From Alphaproteobacteria bacterium (GTDB lineage: Bacteria; Pseudomonadota; Alphaproteobacteria; Caulobacterales; Maricaulaceae): a DNA stretch of 64,000 bases. Within the stretch, counting starts at the first letter, position 1. Every line of letters begins with the position of its first letter. Location of the stretch: the NCBI GenBank assembly GCA_024278855.1, contig JAJRSJ010000022.1:1-64000 (forward strand). The letters are read 5' to 3'. Shown piece after piece: positions 7,422 through 40,930 of the stretch. A program made the translations under genes and the position numbers. The notes below the pieces were generated by a model, which was given only the letters and a program-made list of their open reading frames with translations, did no database searches and was not told the DNA's origin.

Positions 7422-9068
7422 ATGACCGCCATTTCCCCCACTACCGATATTCCTCGTCACCGGGTTTTGGCTAGTGTCACCGGAACATTACACCAAAAAA
7501 CCAATAAGGGGATTGAGAATATTCTCACCCCGGACGCGCTCTTGTTTCTGGCTGATCTGGAACGCCGCTTTGGCCGGGCGCGCCGCAATATGCTAGAATA
7601 TCGCCAAGACCGCCAAGACCGGTTTGATTATGGCGAATTCCCGGATTTCCTACCAGAAACCGCCCATATCCGCGCCGGCATGTGGGAAGTTGACCCCATC
7701 CCCCCTGCTCTGCGTGACCGCCGTGTTGAAATCACCGGGCCGGTTGACCGCAAAATGATGATCAATGCGCTGAACTGCGGTGCAAAAATGTTTATGGCGG
7801 ATTTTGAAGATGCTAGTGCGCCGAGCTTTGACAATATGATCGACGGGCAAATCAACATGTATGATTTCGCCCGTGGGCAATTGACCCATTCCAGCGGCGG
7901 TAAAGATTACAAGCTAAACGACGACATCGCCACCATGTTGGTGCGTCCACGCGGTTGGCATCTTGAGGAAGCCAATATCACAGTTGATGGTCGCCCTATG
8001 TCGGCAAGCCTGTGTGACTTTGGTCTGCATATTTTCCACAACGGCAAATTATTGGCCGAGCAAGGTAGAGGCCCATTTTATTACCTCCCCAAATTGGAGA
8101 GCCATAAAGAAGCAAGGTTGTGGAATGATGTCATTAACTTCGCCCAAACTTTTGTCGGCATTCCCCACGGAACAGTCAAGACCACCGTCCTGATTGAAAC
8201 CCTGCCCGCCGCTTTCGAGATGGACGAAATTCTTTATGAACTTAAATCCCACATCACAGGTCTGAATTGCGGACGCTGGGATTATATCTTCTCCTATATA
8301 AAATGCTTGCGTAATCATAAAGGTTTTGTCCTGCCCGACCGCGCCCAGGTAACGATGGATAAGGATTTTCTGCGGGCTTATTCTTTAAAATTAATCGAAA
8401 CCTGCCACCGCCGCCGCGCCCATGCTATGGGCGGCATGGCGGCGCAGATTCCGGTCAAGGGCGACGCCGCCGCGAATGATGCCGCTTTTGCCAAGGTCCG
8501 CGCCGACAAAGAACGCGAGGTTTTGGCCGGGCACGACGGTACATGGGTGGCCCACCCCGGCTTGGTACCAGTGGCTATGGACGTGTTTAACGAACACATG
8601 CCAGGCCCGCACCAGATTTTGCGCAAAGGTCTGGCCCCGAAGATCACAGCCCAGTCAATGCTCATCCCCCACGCAGGCAAAGTTACCGAGGACGGTATCC
8701 GCACCAATATATCGGTCGGCATTATCTATATCGCCGCTTGGCTATCGGGGCGCGGGGCCGTGCCCATTCACAACCTGATGGAAGATGCGGCGACGGCGGA
8801 AATATCGCGCTCACAAATTTGGCAATGGTTGCGCCACGGCGTCTCGGTAGACTTAGCCGATGGCAAAACGACCAAAATGACTTCGGAGCTGTTCGACCGT
8901 ATTTTCGCCCAGGAAATTGAAAAACTGGAAGACGCCATGAGCGTCTCGGATTTCCGCAAAGGTCATTACACCGAGGCCGCAGAGATTTTCAAAAAATGCG
9001 CCACCAGTATTGATTTCGTCTCGTTCCTCACCTTGCCCGCTTACCAACAACTTTTAAAATATACATAA
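7422..9068 (+). CDS. aceB: Malate synthase A
   Basis: 548 residues from the ATG at 7422, chosen because AGGAG ends 6 bases upstream; an in-frame ATG at 7398 has no such site. It condenses glyoxylate with acetyl-CoA to malate, the second step of the glyoxylate shunt. Family marks: MLVRPRGWHLEE around residue 170 with the catalytic Arg, GLNCGRWDYIFSYIKCLRNH around 280-297 (the malate synthase signature) and MEDAATAEISRSQIWQW near 453, which holds the catalytic Asp region. Length fits the isoform A family. aceA follows after 11 bases, so the two are surely co-transcribed, probably under the divergent ScfR regulator. Confidence 0.97.
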   Translation: MTAISPTTDIPRHRVLASVTGTLHQKTNKGIENILTPDALLFLADLERRFGRARRNMLEYRQDRQDRFDYGEFPDFLPETAHIRAGMWEVDPIPPALRDRRVEITGPVDRKMMINALNCGAKMFMADFEDASAPSFDNMIDGQINMYDFARGQLTHSSGGKDYKLNDDIATMLVRPRGWHLEEANITVDGRPMSASLCDFGLHIFHNGKLLAEQGRGPFYYLPKLESHKEARLWNDVINFAQTFVGIPHGTVKTTVLIETLPAAFEMDEILYELKSHITGLNCGRWDYIFSYIKCLRNHKGFVLPDRAQVTMDKDFLRAYSLKLIETCHRRRAHAMGGMAAQIPVKGDAAANDAAFAKVRADKEREVLAGHDGTWVAHPGLVPVAMDVFNEHMPGPHQILRKGLAPKITAQSMLIPHAGKVTEDGIRTNISVGIIYIAAWLSGRGAVPIHNLMEDAATAEISRSQIWQWLRHGVSVDLADGKTTKMTSELFDRIFAQEIEKLEDAMSVSDFRKGHYTEAAEIFKKCATSIDFVSFLTLPAYQQLLKYT

Positions 9069-9079
9069 AGGAATCCATT

Positions 9080-10702
9080 ATGACCAAACGTAAATCATAT
9101 ACAAAAACATTGAAAAAATATCTCAAGCGTTACCCGGACGGTGTCGCGCCCGGCGGTATCGGCGTTGACGATCTGGTACAGCTTAATTTGCAAAACACCT
9201 ATAAAACCCATTTGGACATTGCCAAAAAAATGGCAACGGTCATGCGAAAAGACATGAAAGCTTATGATAAAGACACCGCCAAATTCACCCAAAGTCTGGG
9301 CTGTTGGAGCGGGTTTCATGCCCAACAAATGATCAAGTCCGTCAAGCGCATGAAAGGCACCACAAAAGGCACATATGTGTATCTGTCCGGCTGGATGATC
9401 GCCGGTCTGCGCAACCAGTTTAGCCATTTGCCCGACCAAAGCATGCACGAGAAAACTGCCGTGCCGGAATTGATCAGCGAGATTTATGCGAGCTTGCGCC
9501 AAGCCGACGAGGTGGAGCTGAATGATCTGTTCAAAGTCCTGAAAACCGCCAAACAAAACGGCGACGAAATCGCCACTAAAAAAGCCGTAAAAGCCATTGA
9601 TAATTTCGAGAGCCATGTTGTACCGATCATCGCCGATATCGACGCGGGCTTTGGCAATTCCCACGCCACCTATCTGCTGTCCAAAAAAATGATCGAAGCC
9701 GGAGCATGTTGCATCCAAATTGAAAATCAGGTGTCCGACGCCAAACAGTGCGGCCATCAGGACGGCAAGGTCACGGTTCCCCGCGAAGATTTCATCGAGA
9801 AACTGCGGGCCGTGCGCATGGCCTTTGAAGAAATGGGCGTTGAGGACGGGGTTATCGTCGCCCGCACCGACAGCCTCGGCGCAGGCCTAACCCAAAAAAT
9901 CCCGGTCTCGACGGAGCCTGGTGACAGCGCGGCCCAATATACGAAATGGCTTGAGACTAGCGACGTAACGACCGACAATCCTTTGGGCGAAGGCGAAGTC
10001 GCCATTCAACTGGACGGCAAATTGGTCAAGCCGGTGCGCTTGCCCAACGGTCTCTATAAATTCAAACCAGACACGGGCCGCGAGCGCGTCATCGAGGATT
10101 GTATTTCGAGCCTCGTTGACGGCGGTGCGGATCTTTTGTGGATTGAAACCGCCACACCGGATGTGAGTGTCATTGGTGCCATGGTCGACGAGATCAAGAA
10201 GACCGTCCCGGACGCCAAGCTGACCTATAATAATTCTCCGTCCTTTAACTGGACGCTAAATCTGCGCGGGCAAGTACGTGAAGACTGGATCGCGTCTGGT
10301 AAAATCACAGAAGACGAATATCCTGAAGGTTTGGCGCTGATGTCGGCCAAATATGACGACACGGAGCTTGGCCGCGAAACTGATAACCGTCTGCGCAGTT
10401 TCCAAGGTGATATTGCCGCCAAGGCCGGGGTGTTTCACAATCTCATTACCCTGCCGACATTCCACATGACGGCGAAGTTTATGGATGATTTATCACGCGG
10501 ATATTTCGGCGACGACAAAATGATGGCCTATGTCAACACCATCCAGCGCGAGGAAATCCGCCGCGAAGTTTCCGCTGTCAAACATCAACACGAAGTCGGC
10601 TCCGACATCGGCGACAATTTCAAAGAAATGGTAGCAGGCGAACGCGCCCTAAAAGCCGGCGGCCACAAAAACACAATGAACCAGTTTAGCAATGTGGCAT
10701 AA
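9080..10702 (+). CDS. aceA: Isocitrate lyase
   Basis: 540 residues. It cleaves isocitrate to glyoxylate and succinate, the first step of the glyoxylate shunt. The active-site signature KQCGHQ lies near residues 221-226 with the catalytic Cys. IIADIDAGFGNSHATYLLSKK precedes it and TYNNSPSFNW near 380 is the conserved substrate-binding block. It is longer than the roughly 430-residue enterobacterial enzyme and belongs to the larger ICL subgroup seen in many alpha- and gammaproteobacteria. AAGGAATCCATT supplies the ribosome binding site. Second gene of the aceBA operon, ending at a strong intrinsic terminator. Confidence 0.97.
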   Translation: MTKRKSYTKTLKKYLKRYPDGVAPGGIGVDDLVQLNLQNTYKTHLDIAKKMATVMRKDMKAYDKDTAKFTQSLGCWSGFHAQQMIKSVKRMKGTTKGTYVYLSGWMIAGLRNQFSHLPDQSMHEKTAVPELISEIYASLRQADEVELNDLFKVLKTAKQNGDEIATKKAVKAIDNFESHVVPIIADIDAGFGNSHATYLLSKKMIEAGACCIQIENQVSDAKQCGHQDGKVTVPREDFIEKLRAVRMAFEEMGVEDGVIVARTDSLGAGLTQKIPVSTEPGDSAAQYTKWLETSDVTTDNPLGEGEVAIQLDGKLVKPVRLPNGLYKFKPDTGRERVIEDCISSLVDGGADLLWIETATPDVSVIGAMVDEIKKTVPDAKLTYNNSPSFNWTLNLRGQVREDWIASGKITEDEYPEGLALMSAKYDDTELGRETDNRLRSFQGDIAAKAGVFHNLITLPTFHMTAKFMDDLSRGYFGDDKMMAYVNTIQREEIRREVSAVKHQHEVGSDIGDNFKEMVAGERALKAGGHKNTMNQFSNVA

Positions 10703-10758: not shown

Positions 10759-11465
10759 GTAGGGTTGTTTTATTTTGTATCTCGGTTTTATGAAACCCAG
10801 CCACCACGGCCATAAATGTACGAACCACACGCCGCAATACAGACGGCCAAAACGCCCAAGCGGCTCGCGCCACCAACCGTGGTCATAACAAACAAGCAAA
10901 GCCCGTCTTTGCAAGACCGAGCCAAAATCTACGAACCCGTATATGCTCACCCGCCCCAAAGGCGACAACCTGCACAGCCATTCCATAAATTGCGCACCGC
11001 TAATACCGCTTGGGCACAAGACCCAAAAAACACCAAAATTGCGCACAAGCGGCGCAGTACGCCTTGCCGCACGCCGCGCCATATGCAAGTCCAAACGCCG
11101 CAATTGCCGGTTAGGCAAGTCCTGTTCACCGAACATATCCGGGTCAAGCCCACGGCCAAAGTCCCCTCCAACCAATAACCAATTTAACCAAACCTGAAAC
11201 CAAACGAAAAACACCAACACCCCGTTCGTGGGATACGTGGGAAGTTTGTGGGCATGAGCAGAACGCACATCCACAAACCCATCCCAAACCCCCAACACAA
11301 CCACAAAGGACAAAGGGGACACACTAGACAAACACGCTATTTTAAATTCAGACACATAATTCATGCCCCCAAAATATACCCGCGCCTAAAACCATGGATT
11401 AGGTTTCTGGTGTCTCTGTAGTTAAAGAAATTGGAGATAAAAGGAAATGCCAGAGCATTGTCTAA
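10759..11465. other. Unassigned 0.7-kb stretch with strong strand bias (C/A-rich on +)
   Basis: No recognisable gene. The plus strand is rich in C and A and poor in G for about 600 bases, so the minus strand is G/T-rich. A minus-strand frame stays open from an ATG at 11364 to 10585, reading through the aceA terminator and 118 bases into aceA antisense. Its product is rich in Trp, Phe and Leu and resembles no family I know. A plus-strand frame (10816-11178) is equally unconvincing. Small hairpins are present: GTCTTTGCAAGAC near 10905 and GGTTTTATGAAACC near 10784. It could be a decayed gene, an orphan membrane protein or a non-coding RNA; I cannot choose. Confidence 0.3.
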
Positions 11466-11515
11466 AAATTAGGCGGGACTGGTAGATGTCCATTTATTGG
11501 CGGCCAAACGGGTTG

Positions 11516-11785
11516 TTAGTGAATGTCTATCCAAAATGGGTTAAAGAGTTCAATCACGTTCAATTTATAAGCCCGCTTCCATTTCTTGATCTGTCGTTCT
11601 TTCCTGAATGCGTCTTCACGAGTATGATATTCCTTAAACCATACCAGTTTATCACATCCATATTTCGCAGTGAAGCCACCGAAAATCTTCTGCTTATGTT
11701 GCTCGACCCGTGCAGAAAGGTCGTCCGTATGACCTGTGTAGAGAGTTCCGTGTGGTTTATTGGTACAAATATAAGTATAGAACAT
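11516..11785 (-). CDS. Small GIY-YIG nuclease-like protein, copy 1 (tail lost to a stop codon)
   Basis: 89 residues forming a compact single-domain GIY-YIG protein of the UPF0213/YhbQ type. TYICTNKPHGTLYTGHTDDL holds the Y...Y and TGH core, the Arg of LSARVEQHK follows, and the Glu of RKERQIKKWKR is in the expected place. Family members are DNA nucleases or structure-specific nicking proteins; the target here is unknown. The homologue at 40354-40680 has a 19-residue C-terminal tail. Here codon 90 is TAA, yet the same frame continues as QPVWPPINGHLPVPPNF up to a TAG at 11464-11462, matching that tail. The upstream side carries an inverted pair of palindromic repeats. Confidence 0.82.
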   Translation of the reverse strand: MFYTYICTNKPHGTLYTGHTDDLSARVEQHKQKIFGGFTAKYGCDKLVWFKEYHTREDAFRKERQIKKWKRAYKLNVIELFNPFWIDIH

Positions 11786-11908
11786 TTAATGAGCATGCTA
11801 TAATGGCGGCATATATACAAGCCCAAAGCAAACAATGTTTATCCAGTGAAATCCCTGCATCCCCCACCCGCTTGGGTGAATTAGTATAAGGTGAATTACT
11901 CCCTCAAA

Positions 11909-12003
11909 CCCGCTCATGCCTGCGTATGCAGGTATCCACCACCGGATTCCCGGTATCCCCAATAACCCAGCAATAGACCCCTGCATTCGCAGGGGTGAGC
12001 GGG
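11909..12003. repeat. REPIN-like inverted pair of palindromic repeats (cluster 1)
   Basis: A forward unit at 11909-11938 begins CCCGCTCA and contains the stem CCTGC-GTAT-GCAGG. A reverse unit at 11976-12003 contains CCCCTGC-ATTC-GCAGGGG and ends TGAGCGGG, the reverse complement of the forward head. The two units point at each other around about 37 bases that include a small ACCGG/CCGGT hairpin. Lies between the GIY-YIG gene and the PLD gene. Confidence 0.8.
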
Positions 12004-12055: not shown

Positions 12056-13237
12056 CTAAGTGGGTTCATAATAGATTGCATCTAGCATTGCAGCCCGCAC
12101 TTTCCGAACTTTTCGTTGGAGTTTTCGGTTCGGCTTTTTTTGATTCCACCAAACGGAATCCATAATTCTAACTATGATTTCATCCCAGTATTTTTCATAA
12201 GTAAGGGTTGAGGCAGTGACGCCAAAATCTTTGCAAAGTGCTTTTTTATTAGCCCCATCAAGACATACAAACAGGTCTGGCCTCTTCATTGCAAGCAATC
12301 TAGTTGCTGTTGAAATACCATCCCTCCCATTTGGGAACGCTTTCGTATATTCAGCTATATATTTCAGGTATTTCATCTTTGAGACTTTACCTGTTATCGG
12401 TATAAAGTCTAATGCTGTAGATAAATAAGGGTTGTTGTCATTTACCGCTTGATGAAAGTACCCCGCTCCCTGCATACTTCCAAACCACGCCCAATATTCG
12501 TGAAAATCCGTTGGGAGCCCTGCTATCATCTTTCTTTGACCTAATGGCATTTCTTTGAACCTACCAAATTCCTCAAAAGCTTCTTTAATATCTGCAAGCA
12601 AATTACATCGCCCATTAAATCCATGGTGGGGATCGTTTTGCACTTTTTTGAAAAACTTAGACCAAGACATTGGAATTAAATCTGTTTCAATATACGGCTT
12701 TGCCTTCATTGTAGAGAAAGGTGTTAAAATTCTTGAAAGTTTAGGGTTGTTCAACTTGTATAAATTAGCGTACTTAACCGCCTCCTTTTTTGTGATGCTT
12801 TTTGCTCTTTCCCAATATTTATCTAGTTGCTTGCTCGTCTCTTCAAAAAAAGCGTGATCGGTATCATTAGAAGATATATGGAGCATTAATTCTGTATTGT
12901 TTTTCAAACCACCATTCGTCATGTTGGCGCTGCCAATAACTATGTCCCAGTTTTTACCAGTGCTGAAAATGTATATTTTGGGGTGAAATGTACCCTTGGG
13001 TTCAATTAAGAATTTCACTTTCTTACTTTTTGTATAATCGACAAGAGCCTGTGGTTCGGTTATATAAGAATGACACCCTATAACGGACTGTGAAATTTTT
13101 TCTTTCTGATAAAATATTTTCTTATAAACATCGTTGCTACATGTTGCCCAAGCAACGGCAAACTGAATATGGTTGTGGTCGTTAAGGAGCTTGACCAATG
13201 TACGGGTCAACATTTTTCCGTTTGAAATTATCTGCAT
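12056..13237 (-). CDS. PLD-type nuclease-like protein, probable defence or restriction function
   Basis: 393 residues from the ATG at 13237, preceded by AGGA with 6 bases spacing; an upstream TTG at 13258 is less likely. One HKD motif is visible: FHPKIYIF with His85 and Lys87, Asp98, then IGSANMTNGG and an acidic residue in NNTEL. A single HKD copy means two subunits would have to pair to form an active site, as in BfiI- or NgoFVII-like nucleases. The C-terminal half ends in a block containing RPDLFVCLDGANKKALCKDF and YWDEII, unlike ordinary lipases. Codon use is markedly AT-rich compared with its neighbours, suggesting horizontal transfer. It is flanked on both sides by REPIN-like repeats. 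No partner methylase is present. Confidence 0.65.
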   Translation of the reverse strand: MQIISNGKMLTRTLVKLLNDHNHIQFAVAWATCSNDVYKKIFYQKEKISQSVIGCHSYITEPQALVDYTKSKKVKFLIEPKGTFHPKIYIFSTGKNWDIVIGSANMTNGGLKNNTELMLHISSNDTDHAFFEETSKQLDKYWERAKSITKKEAVKYANLYKLNNPKLSRILTPFSTMKAKPYIETDLIPMSWSKFFKKVQNDPHHGFNGRCNLLADIKEAFEEFGRFKEMPLGQRKMIAGLPTDFHEYWAWFGSMQGAGYFHQAVNDNNPYLSTALDFIPITGKVSKMKYLKYIAEYTKAFPNGRDGISTATRLLAMKRPDLFVCLDGANKKALCKDFGVTASTLTYEKYWDEIIVRIMDSVWWNQKKPNRKLQRKVRKVRAAMLDAIYYEPT

Positions 13238-13367
13238 TGTACATCCTATCTTTTTCAAAAATACAATATTCTATGTACGATTGCACAATCTAATAGTAAG
13301 TCAAGTATTTTGGGCGTTATACTCAAAATTCTAACGCCCCCTCCTGACCGCAAAGCAATCCCCTACA

Positions 13368-13474
13368 CCCCGCTCATTCCCGGCCCCGACCGGGAATCCA
13401 GTTAAACAATAATGTGCGAGCTTTGCTAGCTCTTTATTCGCTGGACACCCAGTCAAGCTGAGTATGAGCGGGGG
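13368..13474. repeat. REPIN-like inverted pair of palindromic repeats (cluster 2)
   Basis: A forward unit starting CCCCGCTCA at 13368 contains TTCCCGG (13377-13383) and CCGGGAA (13390-13396) as a 7-bp stem and ends TCCAG. The reverse unit begins CTGGA at 13441 and ends TGAGCGGGGG at 13465-13474. The units face each other across about 40 bases. The 339-base gap between the PLD gene and comEC holds nothing else I can identify. Confidence 0.75.
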
Positions 13475-40165: not shown

Positions 40166-40287
40166 GGGTTTCCTTATGTTTTGGTAGATTTGCGGGTGTT
40201 ATAGAGTGTGGGTGAGTTATGCGCAATGGTTGAAGGTACTAACCCCCACACACTAATCATATTTTTTACTGCCCCTGCCTATTTCCT

Positions 40288-40345
40288 CCCGCTCACCCCT
40301 GTCTCCGTTCACCCCGGCGTAGGCCGGGGATGCAGGGGTCTATCG
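40288..40345. repeat. Nested palindromic repeat (cluster 3) at the 3' end of GIY-YIG copy 2
   Basis: CCCGCTCA at 40288-40295 opens the unit. ACCCCTG (40295-40301) pairs with CAGGGGT (40333-40339). Inside this, CCCCGGC (40312-40318) pairs with GCCGGGG (40323-40329). This is the same head and stem as cluster 1, with a second palindrome inserted into the loop. It ends 9 bases before the GIY-YIG stop codon. Confidence 0.8.
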
Positions 40346-40680: not shown

Positions 40681-40761
40681 TATATGAACATACAGAATTT
40701 TAGTGCTGTCCGCAAGCAGATTTATTTAACGTTCTTGCGCCCCCTAAAACTTGGAATATAG

Positions 40762-40930
40762 ACCCCTGCATCCGCAGGGGTGAGCGGGGTGTGTGGATTG
40801 GTGTGGCTATGGAAAAGGATACTGTTCATCGTCGCCAAAAAAAACCGCTCATACCTACGCAGGTCGGCATCCATTGTGAGTACCGCACTAAACCAAAAAA
40901 TGGACACCGTTCTGTGGGCGGATGAGCGGG
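40762..40930. repeat. REPIN-like palindromic repeats (cluster 4)
   Basis: A reverse unit at 40762-40790 has CCCCTGC-ATCC-GCAGGGG and ends TGAGCGGGG, almost the same as the reverse unit of cluster 1. A decayed forward unit at 40846-40875 begins CCGCTCA with an ACCT/AGGT stem. A further TGAGCGGG head lies at 40923-40930. The cluster fills the gap between the GIY-YIG gene and the orphan gene at 40943. Confidence 0.75.

Follow-up and report, generated by a model that had tools for sequence, protein, structure and literature searches.

In RAYT REPtrons, a gene for an HUH Y1 enzyme (PF01797) is flanked by inverted REP units of the GTAG type, gene-less REP pairs occur elsewhere in the genome, and several sub-families are present per genome. 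The CGTC REP superfamily includes Neisseria dRS3 (CGTC-1 family) and Rickettsia RPE-4 and RPE-6 (Di Nocera et al. 2013, PMC3733652). Its members occur mostly as inverted dimers, mainly in alphaproteobacteria, and each unit has an 8-9 bp stem that mostly starts A-T, a 4-5 nt loop, a CCA tail and a terminal unpaired CGTC tag, for which TGTC or CCTC has also been reported (PMC3733652). The survey, whose species include A. lipoferum and S. meliloti, closes with the statement that CGTC REPs are apparently without a dedicated transposase (PMC3733652). For GIY-YIG nucleases, the main text of Dunin-Horkawicz et al. 2006 (PMC1564403) names NUMODs for the HEase cluster, does not contain the string "palindrom", and describes Penelope-like retroelements, in which a GIY-YIG nuclease serves a mobile element. 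Among the matches listed from a library of 5.39 million papers, which lacks most subscription papers and bioRxiv preprints, no title or abstract points to a GIY-YIG/REP link.

We analyzed a stretch of 64,000 nucleotides (the window) from a Maricaulaceae genome of 2.72 Mb in 79 contigs, whose nearest named relatives are Robiginitomaculum MAGs. As in RAYT REPtrons, a gene lies between inverted REP units (the focal copy in the window excepted), more unit copies occur elsewhere in the genome, and several sub-families are present. Unlike in REPtrons, the linked gene is a PF01541 GIY-YIG gene rather than an HUH Y1 gene, and the units carry a tag that resembles CGTC instead of GTAG. The stem, loop, CCA tail and inverted dimers are those of CGTC REPs; the tag reads CGCTC in the window units and is exactly CGTC or TGTC in units at many relatives' GIY-YIG genes. 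What sets these loci apart from the CGTC survey is a GIY-YIG gene inside such dimers. We propose that gene and palindromes probably form one REP-bounded mobile element, in effect a REPtron whose RAYT is replaced by a GIY-YIG nuclease. By analogy, the element would work like a REPtron, yet it is not one by its defining enzyme.

The first-pass annotation of the window had reported a small GIY-YIG gene adjoining an inverted palindromic pair, and a second such gene bracketed by like units; both arrangements are present (Table 1). The focal protein, P0001, matches Pfam GIY-YIG (PF01541) with 59 bits. Beside it, the focal REPIN (11910-12002) consists of two inverted units with their CCGCTCA heads outward. 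As single-stranded DNA, it folds with -24.9 kcal/mol (z -5.5), which none of 200 shuffles equaled, and two REPINs of the window (z -5.5 and -3.8) show the single long hairpin, made from two inverted REPs, that characterizes a REPIN. One unit of the window has the layout ATGCCTGC-GTAT-GCAGGTAT-CCA. The string CCCGCTCA occurs 8 times in the window, a count reached by 1 of 100 shuffles. The focal gene has a REP pair on its 5' side only, and the best inverted repeat between its two flanks scores 7, which is noise level. It is the weakest of the four copies in the genome.

Table 1. Features of the two GIY-YIG loci in the window
Feature	Position	Strand	Details and basis
GIY-YIG gene, focal copy, P0001, 89 aa	11516..11785	-	ORF and translation; Pfam PF01541
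Left REP unit, focal REPIN	11910..11940	+	head CCGCTCA, hairpin CCTGC-GTAT-GCAGG, tail TATCCA; sequence, pair-pattern match
Right REP unit, focal REPIN	11973..12002	-	CCCCTGC-ATTC-GCAGGGG; sequence, hairpin-pattern match
Second REPIN, sub-family II	13370..13471	.	CCCGG stem, TCCAG tail
Outer arm, 3' side of second GIY-YIG gene	~40287..40345	+	loop of hairpin contains nested second unit
Second GIY-YIG gene, P0002, 108 aa	40354..40680	-	ORF, Pfam
Outer arm, 5' side of second GIY-YIG gene	40759..40788	-	
Further degenerate REPIN adjoining second element	40845..40930	.	also in G093

Between the focal REPIN and the second REPIN lies a gene (12056-13258, minus strand) for a 400-aa PLD-domain protein that resembles NgoFVII-type restriction enzymes and PADLOC ZacB. 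The stretch of ~2.9 kb from before the focal GIY-YIG gene to past the second REPIN corresponds to only ~0.2 kb in the related genome G117.

Alignment of 131 proteins revealed near-complete conservation of Y5 (129/130), Y16, R26, H30 and E63 (130/131 each), and high conservation of N82 (115/124), which we take to be the catalytic positions from the roles of their counterparts in I-TevI and UvrC. An AlphaFold2 model is a confident single domain (pLDDT 96.7). The modeled fold matches UPF0213, Slx1 (a branched-DNA nuclease by its entry title), I-TevI and UvrC with tied and modest Z values of 5.4-6.7, and the best PDB sequence match is UPF0213 (1zg2; E 9e-17). In fold and in catalytic Y, Y, R, H, E and N, the protein thus agrees with the GIY-YIG superfamily. 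dN/dS was 0.028 between P0001 and a relative's near-identical protein (L034), 0.069 between P0002 and L036, and 0.11 between a third gene of this genome and that of a close relative. We used these three close pairs; the full range over 360 pairs (dS 0.05-1.2) was 0.03 to 1.0 and includes distant, unreliable pairs. As judged from the alignment and substitution rates, the protein is a conserved, predicted nuclease under selection. P0001 had no match among 50,697 phage records, and neither P0001 nor P0002 matched the PADLOC defence profiles.

Like GIY-YIG homing endonucleases of the I-TevI type, the protein has the catalytic domain and residues, and selfish spread is suspected here too. Unlike them, at 89-108 aa it has no room for a DNA-binding extension, and its gene is bounded by palindromic repeats. 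With UPF0213/YhbQ it shares the single GIY-YIG domain and a similar fold and sequence, and it differs in context, the studied sub-family being bracketed by repeats. As in Penelope-like retroelements, a GIY-YIG nuclease is tied to a putative mobile element; in contrast to those, no reverse transcriptase was seen between the arms, and the whole element spans ~0.5 kb.

A PF01541 search of the genome returned seven matches: a 633-aa frame taken as UvrC, one YhbQ-like gene, another small type (L006), and four genes of the studied sub-family, each beside inverted REP pairs. In the copy on contig C30, the gene lies between an arm of the form CGCTCACCCCTGC-GAAT-GCAGGGGTCTAT and its inverted partner; the 40-kb copy is built alike, apart from the unit nested in one arm. 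The C71 copy has a sub-family II REPIN on each side (CCCGG or CCCGC stem, TCCAG tail), with one arm decayed, and the second REPIN near the focal gene is of this type. In this one genome, then, two unit types accompany two protein types. Flank-to-flank scores were 29 for C30, 16 for the copy at 40 kb, 15 for C71 and 7 for the focal copy; the bracketing is clear at the 40-kb and C30 copies.

The hairpin CCCCTGC-N-GCAGGGG occurs 12 times genome-wide, while a reversed-pattern control gave 0. Four of the 12 lie 5-193 bp from GIY-YIG genes of the studied sub-family, compared with an expectation of 0.019 in a zone of ±400 bp (Poisson P ~5e-9). The inverted pair CCGCTCA-N75-105-TGAGCGG was found in 14 places; by eye, two had no hairpins and two were nested duplicates, leaving 10 REPINs, three of them within ~210 bp of GIY-YIG genes. 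These REPINs are inverted dimers, and REP pairs without a gene, having the same ends, occur elsewhere. Three hairpins hold a second unit of another sub-family in the loop (window 40287-40345; L018 1422-1453 on C44; L019 1424-1455 on C60), which hints that the hairpin loop may be the attack point or insertion target. A related fused arm is seen in a REPIN on C59 (L030).

To measure bracketing in other genomes, we took the best ungapped inverted repeat between the 250-bp flanks and called a score ≥18 strong. A relative of the gene was present at E ≤1e-10 in 99 of 119 family genomes. Matches listed in the family numbered at least ~150, of which 30 were taken as loci and 60 as regions; contig-edge and many lower-scoring matches were left out. 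Of 90 loci, 40 showed strong bracketing; of 2845 random positions within these loci, none did. For a pooled set, 148 loci were reduced to 134 by removing identical 100-bp upstream stretches and to 133 by dropping one with flanks too short; of 12 plasmid loci, L216 and L224 were excluded as near-duplicates of L215 and L220. In this set, 51 of 133 loci reached 18, compared with 3 of the 624 ORFs of ≥200 aa that these loci also contain (Fisher 4e-39). With the threshold fixed beforehand, 18 of 29 loci were strong in a second set, drawn from other families of the phylum; of 613 random positions, none was. This set was the best 30 loci phylum-wide minus the window's own genome and therefore consists of best-scoring relatives; its loci share no 40-base stretch with the 133. 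Loci below 18 numbered 82 of 133 (including three of the genome's own four, at 16, 15 and 7) and 11 of 29. Several second-set arms are classic CGTC REPs, for example CGTCATTCCCGCGAAGGCGGGAATCCA.

In many copies, then, the gene lies between inverted, sequence-matched REP units at short spacing. Among the 51 strong loci, the median distance is 41 bp between the left arm and the point where the match starts, and 8 bp between the stop codon and the right arm; by a crude motif rule, heads point outward in 26, inward in 6 and are ambiguous in 19. Units picked out by a detector (stem 7-9, loop 3-6, tail CC or CTA) were present at 15 of 45 loci, and their density was 6-fold higher in the vicinity of the gene. 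Of the most distant GTDB loci, which number 16 (L063-L078), seven reached 18 with flanks taken from the match end (L066, L068, L070, L071, L073, L074 and L078) and four did so with flanks taken from the ORF end. Bracketed loci in this group include sphingomonads, a Burkholderiales MAG and a Myxococcales MAG, and their palindromes are of another type (CCGTTCGCCCTGAGC...GCGAAGGG, or CCTGAGCTTGTCGAAGG and similar). The Myxococcales MAG (L070) is the one strong example outside Pseudomonadota; two further loci were weaker or not significant, one from Chloroflexi (score 17, control maximum 15) and one from Lysobacterales (score 12, control maximum 14). The GIY-YIG/REP association is real and broad. 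Enrichment of units near GIY-YIG genes, a check set by the first-pass annotation, holds in the window's own genome and across others, and its scope is wider than first claimed, taking in CGTC-like repeats and families across Pseudomonadota, plus L070.

That abundant hairpins such as terminators adjoin these genes by chance is scarcely credible, being refuted by all three controls (0/2845, 3/624 and 0/613). Such an explanation has some force in Neisseria, where dRS3 units are very dense and adjacency is accordingly weak evidence. In Neisseria gonorrhoeae (L219, from 3273), only 2 bp lie between the end of a GIY-YIG gene and the dRS3-type unit that follows it, which alone means little because dRS3 is so dense there.

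Bracketing is also not a property of GIY-YIG genes in general, a possibility we considered and rejected. None of the seven YhbQ-like genes in the same bacterial family reached 18 (a control of only 7 genes, in 7 of 59 genomes), and neither L006 nor the UvrC-like gene L007 had bracketing repeats. The sub-family profile was matched at E ≤1e-10 by 156 of 299 phylum genomes, a count that includes YhbQ-like genes; the window genome's own YhbQ-like gene matches it at 6e-20.

At one and the same site, some relatives have the module and others lack it. Azospirillum lipoferum 4B has a REPIN-gene-REPIN module between sufB and sufC, whereas A. ramasamyi, A. oryzae and B510 have the sufB-sufC operon without it. 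In Sphingobium, the module or its remnants lie beside fnrL in seven plasmids. At this site, TYG74 (L229) and TYG64 (L230) hold a solo palindrome with a head at both ends, which may be a precursor, an excision scar or an independent insertion; neither TYG72 nor TYG65 has such a unit there. A comparison of TomMM7A with TomTYG46 over 49 kb showed two complete REPINs present in one and missing from the other. One of these REPINs shares an identical 31-nt stretch, in its left unit, with the arm of the TomMM7A GIY-YIG element. In G093, of the window's genus, the 40-kb element is missing and the neighboring REPIN (Table 1) is kept. No clean insertion junction or target duplication was found between occupied and empty sites in Azospirillum, the Sphingobium plasmids or the window's genus; because intergenic DNA around the element also differs in the plasmid pairs, exact ends and target duplication cannot be set.

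Short copies share their ends with the coding element; a MITE with an autonomous partner would share sub-terminal DNA as well. A REPIN on C19 has 18 of 19 nt in common with the stretch immediately within the 40-kb element, a likeness that none of 500 shuffles equaled and that would be expected if the REPIN were an internal deletion derivative. Of five element ends compared with REPIN loops, this kind of sub-terminal match was clear in one, weak in one (p 0.04) and absent in three.

The presence/absence pattern bears on whether the gene is a domesticated host nuclease that trims, resolves or deletes REP cruciforms, with close linkage keeping enzyme and substrate together. Purifying selection in the close pairs and the structural likeness to Slx1 would fit such a role, and the solo palindrome of the two Sphingobium plasmids could have arisen by deletion. 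However, copy numbers that reach 7 in a genome (among the matches listed) are the sign of a mobile gene, and presence or absence at one site, together with the place between arms, points to mobility rather than housekeeping. We consider this explanation distinctly improbable.

To relate the gene to repeat number, we applied a single unit pattern to 119 genomes; its counts are incomplete, with 8 places matched in the window's genome, for example. Where the gene was present, the median was 3 units (73 of 99 genomes with any), compared with a median of 0 (7 of 20) in genomes without it (p 0.0014, from statistics that, like all these genome-level counts, ignore kinship). Among RAYT-less genomes, units were present in 58 of 80 with the gene and 4 of 17 without (p 0.0004). 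The seven genomes that have units and no detected gene, one of them with 15 units, count against strict dependence; six of the seven are assemblies of ≥120 contigs, and gene loss after spread would yield the same pattern.

These counts also speak to a view in which RAYTs, since lost from some genomes, or another transposase moved the REPINs, with the GIY-YIG genes as passengers. RAYT-bearing genomes are indeed richer in units (median 8.5 vs 1, p 0.008), and some genomes without a GIY-YIG gene have units. Against this, PF01797 is matched in 22 of 119 family genomes and in none of the other 97, which include genomes with 52, 54 and 65 units; we thus rejected RAYT as the mobilizer, which correlates with unit number but leaves those genomes unexplained. 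At the GIY-YIG loci, just 3 of the 624 other ORFs are bracketed, and no CGTC units were detected next to genes for tyrosine transposases in the 2013 survey (PMC3733652). In the window's own genome, a search for the RAYT-type PF01797 gave no match, so the matching RAYT that the first-pass annotation had named as a counter-explanation was not found there. In G057, the PF01797 gene (L210, on C120) lies amid different repeats, of the GTAGGGTGGATTA type. The same genome has CGTC-type REPINs and no GIY-YIG relative detected at E ≤1e-10. Overall, we regard the passenger view as very improbable.

Arms were more alike where proteins were: over 63 loci, arm and protein similarity correlated with a Mantel rho of 0.28 (0 of 2000 permutations), a value that still includes shared ancestry. 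Within genomes, 12 pairs gave no significant correlation (rho 0.10, p 0.75), in part because the arms at L091 are an unrelated long repeat. At that locus (G117:C27:294-599), the GIY-YIG gene sits within a long inverted repeat unlike REP units. For four pairs of distant paralogues within genomes, arm likeness was 0.35, compared with 0.38 across genomes at equal protein distance.

The main rival is homing-like copying into REPINs, in which a selfish, homing-endonuclease-like gene cuts gene-less REPINs and is copied in via matching arms, so that it spreads itself and not the REPs. Several features suit it: the gene is located between the arms of what is otherwise a REPIN, two Sphingobium plasmids hold a solo double-headed palindrome where others hold the gene between two units, and the fold resembles I-TevI. 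Homing leaves unexplained the origin of REPINs and their excess in gene-bearing genomes, and it predicts the arms of any local REPIN, yet arms are more alike when proteins are (ancestry included). We hold this rival to be rather unlikely.

A REP-bounded element with its own nuclease is the reading we prefer, and an enzymatic role for the GIY-YIG protein in it is likely. Because bracketing is far above chance, GIY-YIG nucleases are the best candidate for the missing repeat-spreading enzyme. The nuclease would recognize its own units by their hairpin, in the form of a cruciform or an extruded single strand, and would nick at or near that hairpin; the pair of units, either alone or together with the gene, could then be copied elsewhere by host repair or replication. 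Short REPINs would be non-autonomous derivatives, reliant on nuclease supplied in trans. GIY-YIG enzymes cleave DNA by hydrolysis and have no known strand-joining activity, so the joining step would have to come from host enzymes. The first-pass annotation had suggested that a single-domain GIY-YIG protein may recognize or spread the palindromes; with the association established and no PF01797 match in the genome, this is the best-supported reading, and recognition and movement themselves are what we infer.

More tentatively, these loci could represent a class of ~0.5-kb bacterial mobile elements whose palindromic REP units are moved by a single-domain GIY-YIG nuclease, with no transposase involved, and which would supply the missing mobilizer of CGTC REPs; we put this broader claim at somewhat less than an even prospect. 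If true, the mobilizer of CGTC REPs would perhaps also be that of Neisseria dRS3, the elements would have molded the repeat complement of Pseudomonadota and perhaps of other groups, and a nuclease fold would be added to the folds on record as spreaders of bacterial repeats. As intergenic repeats, CGTC REPs are widespread; with a gene family now seen bracketed by units like these, the question of a dedicated transposase can be tested directly. It also offers a possible function for the common annotation "GIY-YIG nuclease family protein."

Two further arrangements were seen among the relatives. In G077, the counterpart of the 40-kb gene (L195, on C19, reverse ~8715-10575) is interrupted near its start by an insert that carries an apparent transposase gene. 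Paired GIY-YIG genes 0.6-1.1 kb apart occur at G396:C23:9484-10605 and G294:C147:10807-12440.
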